Shown here: positions 1-23,178 of the stretch, piece after piece | Layout of the letters: each line of letters opens with the position of its first letter | Position numbering within the stretch: position 1 is the first letter of the stretch | Virus record (IMG/VR): IMGVR_UViG_3300009161_000167 | Span: 1 to 29,270 of that record | Origin: a virus | DNA: 29,270 nucleotides | Strand: one strand, 5' to 3' | Position numbers and translations under genes: made by a program | Notes under the pieces: generated by a model | Databases searched by the model: none | The model's input: the letters and a program-made list of their open reading frames with translations, nothing else | Told to the model about the DNA's origin: nothing

Positions 1-911
1 AATTGATGCGGGTACCAATGCGGTACACCTGCGGACAGGCACGCACGGGCGACACTTTTTTGTTGATGTCCCACGCTCCACGGGAACCACCTGTCACAAA
101 ATGTCTTGGGCATGTGGGCCTGAAGTAGTTCAACCGCCGGTGCCGGAATCAGGACAAATGCAACGCCGATGTACTTTTCCGTCTTGTGCTTTTCGAGCCG
201 ATATATCCAGTGCTCGCGTGACATGTCGCAATCTTGCGGGGTCATGGACAGCAGTTCTTTGGACCGCATCCCCGTCAAACGCTGCACCTGAATCGCGATC
301 TTGACACCGGCGGGAAGGTAGGGCAGGGCTAGTTCATACTGACTATCCGTGACCGGCTCCACGGGCGGATTGTCCACGGCACCCTCCCGCCCAGGTGCGA
401 TCGGCTTGACGGCTGCCAGCCGCTGCCACACGTCCGGCTCCACTAGATTCTCTTCAACCGCCCACTTAAAACACGCGATTATCTGGGTCGCTCGTTTGTT
501 GACTGATCTCCGCACGTGGCCTTTTTTGATCAGGCTCTTCCGGACCGCCTTTAGTTGTACCGGCCCAAACTCGCCAGCGAGCTTACTCCCATATAGATCA
601 GTGAGCGAGTCCACCGCATATCGCAAGTTGACGGCCTCGGTACGACCGTTCTTGTTCTGGCCGTAATAGGTGACGCAATGGGCCAAATACCTGATGCCCA
701 GCTCCATCACCGTTAGCGGCTGTGCAGGCACGACCTCAACGGGCCAGTCACCGGTCGCGTAGATAATTTCGCAGAACTCGTAAAACGCCTGGCGAGATTC
801 CGGCGAGTTGAACGCCCCAGGCAGATACTTATACACAGTGTTGAAATAGATTCTGGCGCGACCAGAACTATGTAACGTGTACTTGGGTATAGGGTTAGGT
901 GGGCGAGACAT
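1..911 (-). CDS. int: Tyrosine recombinase (phage integrase), 3' end cut by window
   Basis: An uninterrupted reading frame of 303 codons runs from ATG at 911 to the window edge. It would catalyse site-specific integration and excision of the phage. Residues about 70-170 look like the core-binding SAM-like domain. The catalytic domain follows, with the box I arginine R216 in TGMRSKEL and the beta-hairpin lysine K243 in HKT. The last readable residues, W-Y-P-H-Q, are where the box II H-x-x-R begins, so H/R, the last His/Trp and the nucleophilic Tyr lie outside the window. The HKT motif and the W-x-P-H-Q ending recall integrases common in planctomycetes (family knowledge). The RBS is weak (GGTGG five bases before ATG). 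It lies downstream of a - strand regulator and the tRNA-like segment. Family assignment is firm; the missing C-terminus cannot be judged. Confidence 0.92.
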   Translation of the reverse strand, partial: MSRPPNPIPKYTLHSSGRARIYFNTVYKYLPGAFNSPESRQAFYEFCEIIYATGDWPVEVVPAQPLTVMELGIRYLAHCVTYYGQNKNGRTEAVNLRYAVDSLTDLYGSKLAGEFGPVQLKAVRKSLIKKGHVRRSVNKRATQIIACFKWAVEENLVEPDVWQRLAAVKPIAPGREGAVDNPPVEPVTDSQYELALPYLPAGVKIAIQVQRLTGMRSKELLSMTPQDCDMSREHWIYRLEKHKTEKYIGVAFVLIPAPAVELLQAHMPKTFCDRWFPWSVGHQQKSVARACLSAGVPHWYPHQ

Positions 912-4523: not shown

Positions 4524-4559
4524 TTAGTCCCAACTCCCAAGTTGGGTATATATATACCC
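4513..4559. other. Palindromes at the left edge of the putative origin
   Basis: Inverted copies of the iteron core (AGTCCCAA) lie at 4513-4520 and 4526-4533. CCCAACT (4529-4535) pairs perfectly with AGTTGGG (4540-4546) across a four-base loop. It is directly joined to a perfect 16-base palindrome, GGGTATATATATACCC, at 4544-4559. The two cannot form fully at the same time because they share GGG. An AT-only core flanked by GC arms melts easily. The first hairpin could also end transcription of the primase gene. Confidence 0.6.
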
Positions 4560-4567
4560 CAACACGT

Positions 4568-4705
4568 GGGACTAAGTAGCGTGGGACTAAGTTGGGACTA
4601 AGTTGGGACTACTTAAATTTAAGCGTTTCGTATTTTTTGGGAGTGGTTTGGGAGTGGTCCCAAGGTGGTTTGGGACTAAGTAGGTTGGGACTAACTTTGG
4701 GACTA
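4568..4705 (+). repeat. Iteron array, probable replication origin
   Basis: Seven copies of GGGACTA, four of them continuing as GGGACTAAGT, start at 4568, 4583, 4594, 4605, 4672, 4687 and 4699. Spacings are 15, 11, 11, 67, 15 and 12 bases, so the best copies recur about once per helical turn. In the 67-base gap lie a perfect palindrome, CTTAAATTTAAG (4612-4623), and two copies of TTGGGAGTGG eleven bases apart (4637, 4648), followed by an inverted TCCCAA. Iterons plus AT-rich palindromes beside an initiator/helicase gene are the usual layout of a theta-type phage or plasmid origin. No gene of normal size is seen between 4524 and 4865. Confidence 0.7.
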
Positions 4706-6627: not shown

Positions 6628-6837
6628 ATGAACACTGATTTAGAGCTGCTCAAAACCGAGATTGACCGCTTGTCACAGCGGGTCCAGATGGCAATCGACG
6701 AGCCTAAGACCGATCCTGAACTGGTCTCGCGAGCCATGACCGATGTCCGGTGGCAATGGCGGTGGATGGAGTCCAAGACACCGGACCGCATCCCGTTTCA
6801 ATCGTATGTAAATGGCTCAGACGAGGTGCAATCATGA
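6628..6837 (+). CDS. Hypothetical protein, 69 aa
   Basis: Starts at ATG 6628 with GAAAGG eight bases upstream, inside a GTAAGTAATG sequence. It has a heptad-like helix at the start (LELLKTEIDRLSQRVQMAI) and a Trp-rich middle (VRWQWRWME). It ends with an ATGA overlap into the next gene. No family is recognised. Confidence 0.62.
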   Translation: MNTDLELLKTEIDRLSQRVQMAIDEPKTDPELVSRAMTDVRWQWRWMESKTPDRIPFQSYVNGSDEVQS

Positions 6838-7184
6838 CCACCGCAACAATGGCAGCACCACTGTTTACAGCCGCCGAAACATTTCTGGCCGCCCGTGCCA
6901 AGAGATTAAACATGGCCGAAATCACCCTAATTAGTATGTGGCCGGAACGGGCGGGCAAGTACAAGCGAGTCATCGACTACGCTCGCAGAGATTTTGACCA
7001 CGCTCTGGCTCGCAACCTGGCTGCCGATCCTGACACGGATCCAGCCGAGATCGTGCGGTTGATGAATCACCAGCCTTACGACCGCATCGTCTCGCTTGGG
7101 TCTGACAAGGATGGTAACGAGTTTCTAGTGGAGGAGTCCCAGGCAGGTCGTCACTGGACAGCCCACCCCGAACAGTTGCAATAA
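6834..7184 (+). CDS. Hypothetical protein, 116 aa
   Basis: Coupled to the gene before it; start ATG 6834 with GAGG nearby. The N-terminal half is helical (APLFTAAETFLAARAKRLN). The C-terminal half reads like a small beta domain (DRIVSLGSDKDGNEFLVEES). It is the last gene before the structured noncoding stretch upstream of csrA. Function unknown. Confidence 0.65.
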   Translation: MTTATMAAPLFTAAETFLAARAKRLNMAEITLISMWPERAGKYKRVIDYARRDFDHALARNLAADPDTDPAEIVRLMNHQPYDRIVSLGSDKDGNEFLVEESQAGRHWTAHPEQLQ

Positions 7185-7326
7185 GATCAGTCCCGTAAGC
7201 CGCTATGCTCCATAGTCCTCAGGCGGTGGTAATTGTGGCTCGGTGGAATCCTTACCACCCGCTCTCGCACGCACGAGAGCAAGAGCGATCGGGCCGGGAA
7301 CCGAGCGATTACCAAGCGGGCTGCAT

Positions 7327-7386
7327 CCGCCGTCAGTGGCTCAAGGGGGACGTATTTCCCCGGGTGGGTTCGATTCCCACCGGCGG
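7327..7386 (+). other. tRNA-like element with perfect T arm but no D arm
   Basis: CCGCCG (7327-7332) can pair with CGGCGG (7381-7386) as an acceptor-like stem. It encloses the arm GGGGA/TCCCC and a textbook T arm GTGGG-TTCGATT-CCCAC (7364-7380). There is too little sequence for a normal D arm plus anticodon arm, and no convincing anticodon or 3' CCA. A longer fold starting further upstream, as in tRNA-Ser/Leu, was tried by eye and does not close the acceptor stem. It may be a tRNA mimic or a decayed tRNA inside the larger structured region. Confidence 0.35.
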
Positions 7387-7388
7387 CT

Positions 7389-7419
7389 TGTCAGGGCTAG
7401 TCGATATCCAGCCCTGACA
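7389..7419 (+). terminator. Ten-pair hairpin inside the structured region
   Basis: TGTCAGGGCT and AGCCCTGACA pair perfectly around an 11-base loop, directly after the tRNA-like T arm. No U run follows, so it may close an RNA 3' end by processing, or be a structural element and not a terminator. Confidence 0.45.
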
Positions 7420-7562
7420 GACTCTCGGTTAGTTGATTCCGAAGTTGTTTATCCGGCACCAGCTGGGCAACCTCACTTGAACTGCGGGGAGTTGGTCAAT
7501 CGGTACTCGCGCCGGTGGCTTCATACACCACCGGCACTCAATCAACATGGAGGTTACAGCAG

Positions 7563-7760
7563 ATGCTAGTCCTAAAATGCAAAATCGGCGAAGAAATCGT
7601 GATTTCAGTCAACGGAATCGAAACCGTCTTGACGGTCACGGAATCGCATCACGGTGCGGTTAAGCTGGGTTTCTCGGCTCCACCGGAGGTGGTGATTGAT
7701 CGGCGGATCGTGTGGGCTAAGAAGATGATGAATGCAGTTGAAACAGGGAAAACATCATGA
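7563..7760 (+). CDS. csrA: CsrA/RsmA-family RNA-binding regulator
   Basis: 65 residues from ATG 7563, fixed by GGAGG at 7549-7553. The pattern is the CsrA one: MLVLKCKIGEEIVI at the start, a variable turn, then VKLGFSAPPEVVIDRRIVW. CsrA dimers bind GGA in RNA hairpins and block or stabilise messages. R47/R48 match the conserved arginine near the end of the core. The usual R6 of the first RNA-binding strand is Cys here and R7 is Lys, so RNA affinity or specificity may differ. It sits directly behind a hairpin-rich leader with exposed GGA motifs and overlaps the AP2 gene by four bases. A phage CsrA could redirect host translation or its own late genes (inference). Confidence 0.85.
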   Translation: MLVLKCKIGEEIVISVNGIETVLTVTESHHGAVKLGFSAPPEVVIDRRIVWAKKMMNAVETGKTS

Positions 7761-21878: not shown

Positions 21879-22384
21879 TGCTCAAGTCACTGGCACTACT
21901 ACTGACATTTGCCGTGCCGGTGATGGCAGACACGGGACAGGCGACATCCCTGCCCGCCATGTCAGAGTCGTCATGGATCTTTGTCGATCAAGGCAACACC
22001 TACCTGATCGGCAAACAATCCGGCTCGGTACTGATCCTGCGGTCTGGTGACGAGCCGCGACCACAACCACGACCGATACCGATACCGATCCCTGATGCGA
22101 TCACGGGCGTTAAGTGGTTGAGCGTGATCGTTGACACGGACAACCCCGATCAGGCGGCGTGGCGGACTGATTCCGCCCTTAGAACAGAAGTCGAGCGCAA
22201 GGCGATCAATTACCGCTCGTATCTGACGAGCGAATCGGACGTTGACAGCCTTGGATTTCGTGCGTTATTGCAATCGACCGGCACGCCGTGCGTTATCCTA
22301 CAGGACGCAAACGGCAAACTGGTCAAGACGATTCGGCCTGCCAATCTTGCCGATATCATGGCGATTCTGGAGGCGATCAGATGA
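21875..22384 (+). CDS. Exported protein with Pro-rich linker and thioredoxin-like domain
   Basis: 169 residues. Signal peptide (MLKSLALLLTFAVPVMA) using ATG 21875 or 21878, a short beta part, a Pro/Arg-rich linker (PRPQPRPIPIPIPDAITG), and a C-terminal domain of about 90 residues. That domain ends GTPCVILQDANGKLVKTI and a helix, recalling the cis-Pro strand and last hairpin of thioredoxin. The usual C-x-x-C is absent, so redox activity is doubtful. It directly precedes the papain-type peptidase, overlapping by four bases, so it may be its partner in the envelope. Confidence 0.6.
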   Translation: MMLKSLALLLTFAVPVMADTGQATSLPAMSESSWIFVDQGNTYLIGKQSGSVLILRSGDEPRPQPRPIPIPIPDAITGVKWLSVIVDTDNPDQAAWRTDSALRTEVERKAINYRSYLTSESDVDSLGFRALLQSTGTPCVILQDANGKLVKTIRPANLADIMAILEAIR

Positions 22385-23178
22385 GCCAGCCCGAACTATT
22401 TCCCTGCTTCGGGAACGACTGGCGTGGCATGGGCAACCGTCCACCGTCGATCAGCCTAAAGCTCGGTTCGCAGCCACTTCCCGCCATCCTGCCAAGCGAA
22501 TGGGTGGAATTCGATCTCACCGCATCGCCAAACTTCCCAATAAAGATCAAAGATCAAGGGCAGTTCGGTGCCTGCAACGGACACGCCGCAGCCACATCGC
22601 TGGAAGTGGCTCGCTGGATTGCCGGTCAACCTCATATCGACCTATCACCCTGGTTGATTTATGCCGATCTGTGCCGTGGTTGGGACACCGGGTCAAGCAT
22701 TGCCGAGGCACTCCAACTACTTGAGAAGTCAGGCACTTGCGAGACTTCGCTGGTTCCATTCGGCACAATCAACCCATCGTCAGTCAAGCAACAGGCTCGC
22801 AACGATTGCAAGCGATTCAAAATTGAGATCGGTACGACACTCCTGACTTGGGATGATTTGTGCGTTGCAACGCAGCTGCGACGACCGTTCAATTTCTCGA
22901 TCCCAGTCAACACCGGATTCAATGCACTCGACGCCAACGGTTGCCCATCGAACAGGTCAGGCTCGCACAACCACGCCGTGATGGGCGGGCTAGGGATGCG
23001 AAAGGCCGCTGATGGGCAATGGCTCATCAGGTGGCAGAACAGTTGGGGTACGCGATGGGGTCAAAATGGGCGTGCCTGGCTGTGTGAACGGAACATCGAG
23101 GGCTGGGGTTTTGATGCCTACAGTGTCTCGGCAATTGCAACGATCACGCCTGACACGGCACCTGCTCTTGCATCTTGA
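22381..23178 (+). CDS. Papain-family (C1) cysteine peptidase
   Basis: 265 residues. All four C1 signature residues are in place: oxyanion Q59 (KDQGQFG), nucleophile C65 (FGACNGHAAATS), H198 (GSHNHAVMGGL) and N220 in WQNSWGTRWGQNG. There is no signal peptide and no obvious propeptide beyond about 50 residues, so export would need the holin or virion. Being last in the holin-like cluster, it may act as the endolysin or cut surface protein on entry. Phage lysins of the papain fold normally belong to CHAP or NlpC/P60; a true C1A pattern with N-S-W-G is unusual. Peptidoglycan versus protein as substrate cannot be told from sequence. Confidence 0.85.
   Translation: MSQPELFPCFGNDWRGMGNRPPSISLKLGSQPLPAILPSEWVEFDLTASPNFPIKIKDQGQFGACNGHAAATSLEVARWIAGQPHIDLSPWLIYADLCRGWDTGSSIAEALQLLEKSGTCETSLVPFGTINPSSVKQQARNDCKRFKIEIGTTLLTWDDLCVATQLRRPFNFSIPVNTGFNALDANGCPSNRSGSHNHAVMGGLGMRKAADGQWLIRWQNSWGTRWGQNGRAWLCERNIEGWGFDAYSVSAIATITPDTAPALAS

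Follow-up and report, generated by a model that had tools for sequence, protein, structure and literature searches.

The window analysed here, a stretch of 29,270 bases from an IMG/VR virus record, contains a 378-nt region (7185-7562) between a gene for a 116-aa protein and a csrA-family gene (Table 1). The upstream protein has no match in Pfam or PHROG, and its AlphaFold model is of low confidence (mean pLDDT 67.3). Pfam scores of 40.8 bits (window protein) and 54.2 bits, against a cut-off of 27, and retention of the RNA-binding residues place the proteins encoded downstream in the CsrA family, as the initial annotation had proposed for the window. The arginine aligned with R44 of E. coli CsrA is kept in 7/7 CsrA proteins and L4 in 6/7 (phenylalanine in contig L037); the CsrA proteins of contigs L037 and L038 are merely 28-34% identical. 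Neither the region nor the sequence immediately preceding it yielded a sigma-70-like promoter, a result that speaks neither for nor against co-transcription. The gene 3' of csrA differs among the phages, which are mosaics carrying terminase and ssDNA-binding proteins in strongly diverged versions.

Other features of the window lie outside this locus. A tyrosine-integrase match at 105-305 (minus strand, left end of the record; 24.4 bits, below the cut-off of 27.1) suggests a temperate phage. A papain-family cysteine protease (Peptidase_C1, 34.2 bits; cut-off 20.7) is encoded at 22366-23175, directly before the capsid gene. Just past the primase-helicase gene, eight copies of TGGGACTA (seven on the plus strand, one on the minus) are arranged around an AT-rich stretch at 4525-4705; 0.38 copies are expected, 0/100 shuffles reach eight, and the repeats are possibly iterons of a replication origin.

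The region upstream of csrA is a structured, noncoding and conserved RNA. Five perfect stem-loops that do not overlap, each with at least 6 pairs, lie within it, a number reached by 0/500 dinucleotide-preserving shuffles (mean 1.19) and by 3/308 stepped windows of the record, and the 378-nt fold has z = -2.94, with 1/100 shuffles folding as well. The initial annotation had counted six perfect stem-loops of 6-10 pairs; the region is indeed hairpin-rich, but we count 5 pairs in the sixth, the GGGGA stem. The absence of a good gene, also noticed from the window alone, is confirmed by the homologues. Indels among them measure 1, 2, 4 and 5 nt in addition to 3 nt, which is not how coding sequence behaves, and a coding reading of open reading frames such as 7205-7417 and 7243-7569 is ruled out by the frame-breaking indels. 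The remark in the initial annotation that the RNA was not recognised as any known class agrees with a search of the window in which no Rfam family reached its gathering threshold. Permissive Rfam searches of three loci (the window, L016 and L009) gave sub-threshold matches only, and ARAGORN found no tRNA in the window and none in 16 loci.

Comparison of the homologues resolves three parts: module A, a tRNA-like element (TLE) and the csrA leader. Compensatory changes back helices in each part. Covariation over the whole structure exceeds all 500 column shuffles in both alignments, at 0.266 in A1 (13 rows; shuffled mean 0.151) and 0.297 in A2 (17 rows; shuffled mean 0.146), and slid registers score 0.032-0.088. 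The count of two-sided pair changes does not exceed the shuffles in A2 (196/500 as high), nor does that of further pair types in A1 or A2 (300 and 488 of 500). Alignment cells overstate independent events because the rows are related and recombine; L007 agrees with the window as far as module A extends and then switches inside the TLE. Covarying pairs and conservation of hairpins beside csrA had been named beforehand as a test of the initial annotation, and both are present.

Table 1. Positions of features at the csrA locus of the window and of pentamer arrays in related contigs
Feature	Position	Strand	Description
Upstream gene	6834-7184	+	116 aa; conserved in 15 other contigs
Module A	7185-7328	+	144-nt multi-junction RNA; seven helices by model
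Module A P1	7185-7196/7316-7327		
Module A P2	7199-7204/7222-7227		
Module A P3	7228-7236/7305-7313		
Module A P4	7238-7241/7283-7286		
Module A P5	7242-7246/7255-7259		
Module A P6	7261-7266/7275-7280		
Module A P7	7289-7292/7301-7304		
Perfect stem-loops	7225-7259, 7261-7280, 7363-7381, 7389-7419, 7511-7535		
TLE	7329-7388	+	about 60 nt; comparative alignment, sub-threshold Rfam tRNA-Sec and mascRNA matches
TLE acceptor	7329-7334/7382-7387		6 bp
TLE GTGG	7336-7339		D-loop position
TLE arm at anticodon position	7345-7349/7357-7361		
TLE T-arm	7363-7368/7376-7381		6 bp; loop TTCGATT 7369-7375
csrA leader	7389-7562		
Leader-start hairpin	7389-7419	+	10 pairs in window; consensus GTCAG/CTGAC
Leader domain	7421-7492	+	ACTCTC 7421-7426 with GGGAGT 7487-7492; inner helix 7441-7447/7468-7474; hairpin 7453-7457/7462-7466
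GC-rich hairpin	7511-7535	+	about 13 nt upstream of Shine-Dalgarno
Shine-Dalgarno GGAGG	7549-7553	+	only always-kept ANGGA
csrA	7563-7760	+	65 aa; Pfam, PHROG CsrA-like, solved CsrA structures
GGYNN array	L100:889-1661		
GGYNN array	L009:4528-5312		
GGYNN array	L010:4530-5118		
GGYNN array	L014:2662-3393		
GGYNN array	L018:4523-4894		
GGYNN array	L036:1427-2184		
GGYNN array	L088:1-1097		
GGYNN array	L027:8917-10068	reverse	

Queries with the csrA protein, the upstream protein and two DNA patterns showed that 17 further IMG/VR contigs carry the RNA, making 18 loci with the window, 17 of them distinct in sequence. csrA follows the RNA in 17/18 loci; contig L019 ends before it. Fifteen contigs were found through the upstream protein, and the T-arm is of tRNA type in 15/15. 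The T-arm pattern itself led to L037 and L038, whose upstream gene is a different one that we read as RecT-like. The TLE, the leader and csrA stay together despite this different upstream gene, and also despite the loss of module A from L011, L012 and L016; TLE and leader are present in all loci as far as the contigs extend. With a covariance model, R1, each of 13 records shows a single strong copy; record G010 has an additional 14-bit match.

Wider searches returned a single 22-nt T-arm match in phage DNA, none in plasmids, no tblastn match of the window CsrA among phages, and no match of the TLE pattern or the upstream protein in genome contigs. Among viral contigs, the CsrA alignment returned only those of L037 and L038, the upstream protein returned the same 15 contigs again, and an AP2-gene alignment brought a few further contigs, of which the five searched with model R1 (L088, L094, L100, L102, L103) gave no TLE; L100 starts inside the leader and carries csrA. 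A looser TLE pattern matched 37 stretches, 15 in the family and 22 others (23 matches) whose sequences look like tRNA-type or chance matches. An 18-nt hairpin of module A (18 of 146 model positions) was matched outside the family in L024, L025 and L029, and we take these matches as chance because the opposite strand of the 18 nt reads GGKDST. Another phage contig has a short tRNA-like sequence near tRNA-like sequences (L062:11811-11867, minus strand; 23.1 bits to R1), which seems to have no anticodon arm.

Eight contigs of these phages carry GG-Y-N-N pentamer arrays between csrA and an AP2-like gene; the window is without one. Each array has 54-140 pentamers in which the two N positions take nearly any value, interrupted by 3-10 copies of a hairpin unit of about 38 nt. 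Of the 56 copies of this unit, 27 are distinct, and the two strands of its inner stem seem to change together. An Rfam search of the L100 array gave only a chance-level match of 12.2 bits; G-quadruplex RNA and protein-binding DNA are our guesses as to what the arrays are. Close to tRNA genes on another phage contig, 138 kb long, nine GGYNN pentamers form one run (L042:4279-4323).

Module A is present in 13/18 loci and absent from 5/18, namely L011, L012 and L016, where its first bases GATCAGTCCCGT remain, and L037 and L038. The loss in the first three looks, from the sequence, like a deletion between CCGCC repeats. Five pairs of P3 and four of P6 are changed on both sides. P4 (GCTC/GAGC or GAGT, changed to GTCC/GGAC) and P7 (TCGG/CCGA, TCAG/CTGA or TCGG/CTGA) pair in 13/13, with compensatory changes and with G-U in some rows; together they replace, after inspection, the P4 drawn by RNAalifold, since the MAFFT alignment is shifted there. 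P1, P2 and P5 have no two-sided changes in the 13 rows and are consistent with the alignment. The P5 loop (AATCCTTA) might contact the P7 loop, which is a guess. An alternative fold, in which AGCCGC at 7198-7203 pairs with the 3' strand of the TLE, could form in 13/13 module-A loci; it is 1.6-6.6 kcal/mol worse than the separate-domain fold in 12/13 and 0.8 better in L008, and the separate-domain fold is the predicted minimum in 11/13. No Rfam 15 model matches module A; an intron, a self-cleaving ribozyme and a riboswitch were considered for it, and none gave an Rfam match.

The TLE has a T-arm and a paired acceptor like those of tRNA. The T-stem is paired 6/6 in 18/18 loci in three compensated forms, GGTGGG/CCCACC (once CCCGCC), GGCAGG/CCTGCC and CGTTGG/CCAACG, around an invariant loop that fits TTCRANY. 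The acceptor, GCCGTC/GGCGGC, varies to GCCGTT/AGCGGC and GTCGTC/GGCGGC; a C-G pair becomes U-A in 5/17 rows, and the innermost pair is mismatched in 2/17 rows, each time singly. Acceptor and T-stem form a stack of 12 bp, the length of the acceptor/T stack of tRNA, and GTGG is kept at the D-loop position. By inspection of alignment A4 there is no D-stem and no conserved anticodon loop; where an anticodon arm would be, there is an arm paired in 97.1% of cells, with a loop of variable length and sequence. The acceptor is followed by TTGTCAG and not by CCA. In the permissive Rfam searches the window scores 23.8 bits with tRNA-Sec and 17.8 with mascRNA-menRNA; L016, which is without module A, scores 28.8 and 25.4 bits (E 0.0031 for the latter), and L009 scores 24.3 bits with tRNA-Sec and 16.7 with the Deinococcus Y RNA (E 2.2), with mascRNA-menRNA not listed. 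The TLE is not filed under any of these families because no score reaches its gathering cut-off (47 bits for tRNA-Sec, 42.5 for mascRNA-menRNA and 80 for Y RNA). To judge from its conserved parts, the TLE is a tRNA mimic that by its anatomy probably cannot decode.

A canonical tRNA T-arm and a tyrosine-integrase match in 11/14 records (9 over the cut-off) could point to a decayed tRNA gene or to a tRNA fragment of attP type. However, the TLE is 3.9-8.4 kb from the integrase match in 10/11 records and 28 kb from it in G011, the T-stem varies and the acceptor 3' strand and flank are fixed, and the TLE is more than a tRNA 3' end because both acceptor strands are kept with compensation. We therefore give such a relic very little credence. 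Retention of the tRNA elbow and not of the anticodon would also suit a mimic that acts in trans, the TLE, alone or joined to module A, being released as a stable small RNA. Such an RNA might be Y-RNA-like, or it might serve as a decoy that occupies tRNA enzymes or defence nucleases directed against tRNA. The single copy per phage record (13/13) and the weak Y RNA match in L009 are in its favour, but that match is far under the cut-off, a TROVE (Ro60/Rsr) gene is found in 0/14 phage records (which may be fragments; the control matched in Deinobacterium chartae), and nothing would tie a free RNA to csrA. We think action in trans rather improbable.

The csrA leader begins with a hairpin that starts 2 nt past the acceptor in 18/18 loci. 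In the leader domain, two pairs of the inner helix are changed on both sides; the outer helix, shifted in the MAFFT alignment, was placed by inspection. The GC-rich hairpin is paired in 16/16 rows with letters, one pair changing from GC to UA. The GGA sites lie where the initial annotation put them. The GGA of GGGGA (7486-7490) is predicted to be paired, with an unpaired probability of 0.01-0.05 in the window, and folding of 16 leaders predicts the site to be paired in most of them, with partial exceptions (e.g., the first G in L014). In 17/17 leaders that reach it, the Shine-Dalgarno GGA takes the form ANGGA, and its predicted pairing ranges widely among leaders.

These sites bear on two further readings of the RNA. 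A hairpin-rich RNA adjoining csrA recalls the CsrB-type decoys that sponge CsrA, the target or decoy envisaged by the initial annotation. A decoy is not supported because GGA, at 2-6 per leader, is below the shuffled mean in 18/18, and the sites other than the Shine-Dalgarno are mostly paired by prediction. The hairpin thought to present GGA at 7245-7247 (GGTGGTAA/TTACCACC) cannot form in 6/13 homologues. We rejected the decoy on these counts and on the loss of that hairpin, and regard it as the least plausible reading of all. The earlier interpretation is partly supported; it missed the tRNA-like core and the separability of module A.

An uncut cis-regulatory leader is a more serious alternative, albeit an unlikely one: the folded RNA would control translation or transcription of csrA, with CsrA repressing itself at the Shine-Dalgarno. 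The RNA is always beside csrA where the contig reaches (17/17), and the constant ANGGA form of the Shine-Dalgarno GGA makes autoregulation through the leader conceivable, but Shine-Dalgarno function alone accounts for that GGA. ACAAGGAT, about 83 nt before the start, occurs in 5/8 distinct type-2 csrA loci and 0/6 type-1 loci (Fisher p 0.031, in a comparison chosen after seeing the data); against this, ACAAGGAT is predicted paired, and leader forms and csrA types have been mixed by recombination. Such a leader would have no need of a tRNA mimic.

We tentatively favour another reading, to which we give somewhat less than an even chance: a composite noncoding RNA lies between two phage genes, and its TLE is a tRNA-type processing mark that separates two mRNAs and is cut by host RNase P. 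We favour it because 1 nt separates the end of P1 in module A from the TLE in 13/13 and the leader hairpin follows at 2 nt, because RNase P recognises a 12-bp acceptor/T stack with a T-loop, and because there are precedents in M3, C4, mRNAs and MALAT1. RNase P is described as processing phage M3 RNA, phage C4 RNA and mRNAs (PMC11143913). It also generates the MALAT1 3' end, by a cut in front of a tRNA-like RNA, after which that end adopts a triple-helix fold (PMC12941219). The points against a processing mark are the Rfam scores below cut-offs, the missing CCA, the acceptor mismatch in 2/17 rows and the dispensability of module A.

Comparison among loci establishes the fold, the tRNA-type T-arm, the close fit of the flanking helices and the association with csrA as features of the sequence; from these we infer transcription, the cut, protection of the ends and an effect on csrA expression. 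Host RNase P, perhaps with RNase Z, would recognise the TLE and the transcript would be cut there. Module A, as a compact fold, would cap the 3' end of the upstream message, and the csrA message would start with a protective hairpin at its 5' end. The outcome would be a separate, stabilised mRNA for csrA.

If the processing mark is real, phage mRNAs have a tRNA-punctuation module that uses a non-decoding tRNA mimic, and the global regulator CsrA comes under tRNA-processing control during infection; module A would add a structured RNA class. Even without cleavage, this is a conserved phage RNA of unrecognised class whose helices have comparative support and whose parts are defined precisely enough for mutagenesis.

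Many phages carry CsrA/RsmA, and repression of host CRISPR-Cas has been proposed for it (PMC8450108, PMC9928087). Within the literature covered, which lay mostly outside subscription journals, we found no paper on a tRNA-like RNA before phage csrA. Other phage csrA loci differ from this one: eight INPHARED records have a CsrA match, and the five of their regions that were examined contain no TLE according to model R1. The csrA of Vibrio phage VvAW1 overlaps the preceding gene. CsrB, CsrC and RsmZ are likewise hairpin-rich and CsrA-linked, but the RNA described here has no GGA enrichment. Bacterial Y RNAs have a tRNA-like module beside another fold, as this RNA does; they differ in that their Rfam match is confined to L009 and far below threshold. 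tRNA, tRNA-Sec and the tRNA-like domain of tmRNA share with the TLE the T-loop TTCGATT, GG at the D-loop position and the 12-bp stack, whereas the TLE is without D-stem or CCA, has a variable loop in place of the anticodon, is not called by ARAGORN and reaches 23.8-28.8 bits with tRNA-Sec.

The nearest parallel in arrangement is the MALAT1 3' end with mascRNA (RF01684), a small tRNA-like RNA directly after a folded element, with L016 giving the best mascRNA score. The present match is sub-threshold, occurs in phage between two protein genes and has a cut that is only proposed, and module A is a different fold and is dispensable. By analogy, the locus may be a phage counterpart of MALAT1/mascRNA, in which a tRNA mimic recruits RNase P to a polycistronic message, module A forms the protected 3' end and the hairpin protects the csrA 5' end; we consider this stronger claim doubtful. 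In MALAT1, the RNase P cut precedes the tRNA-like RNA (PMC12941219).
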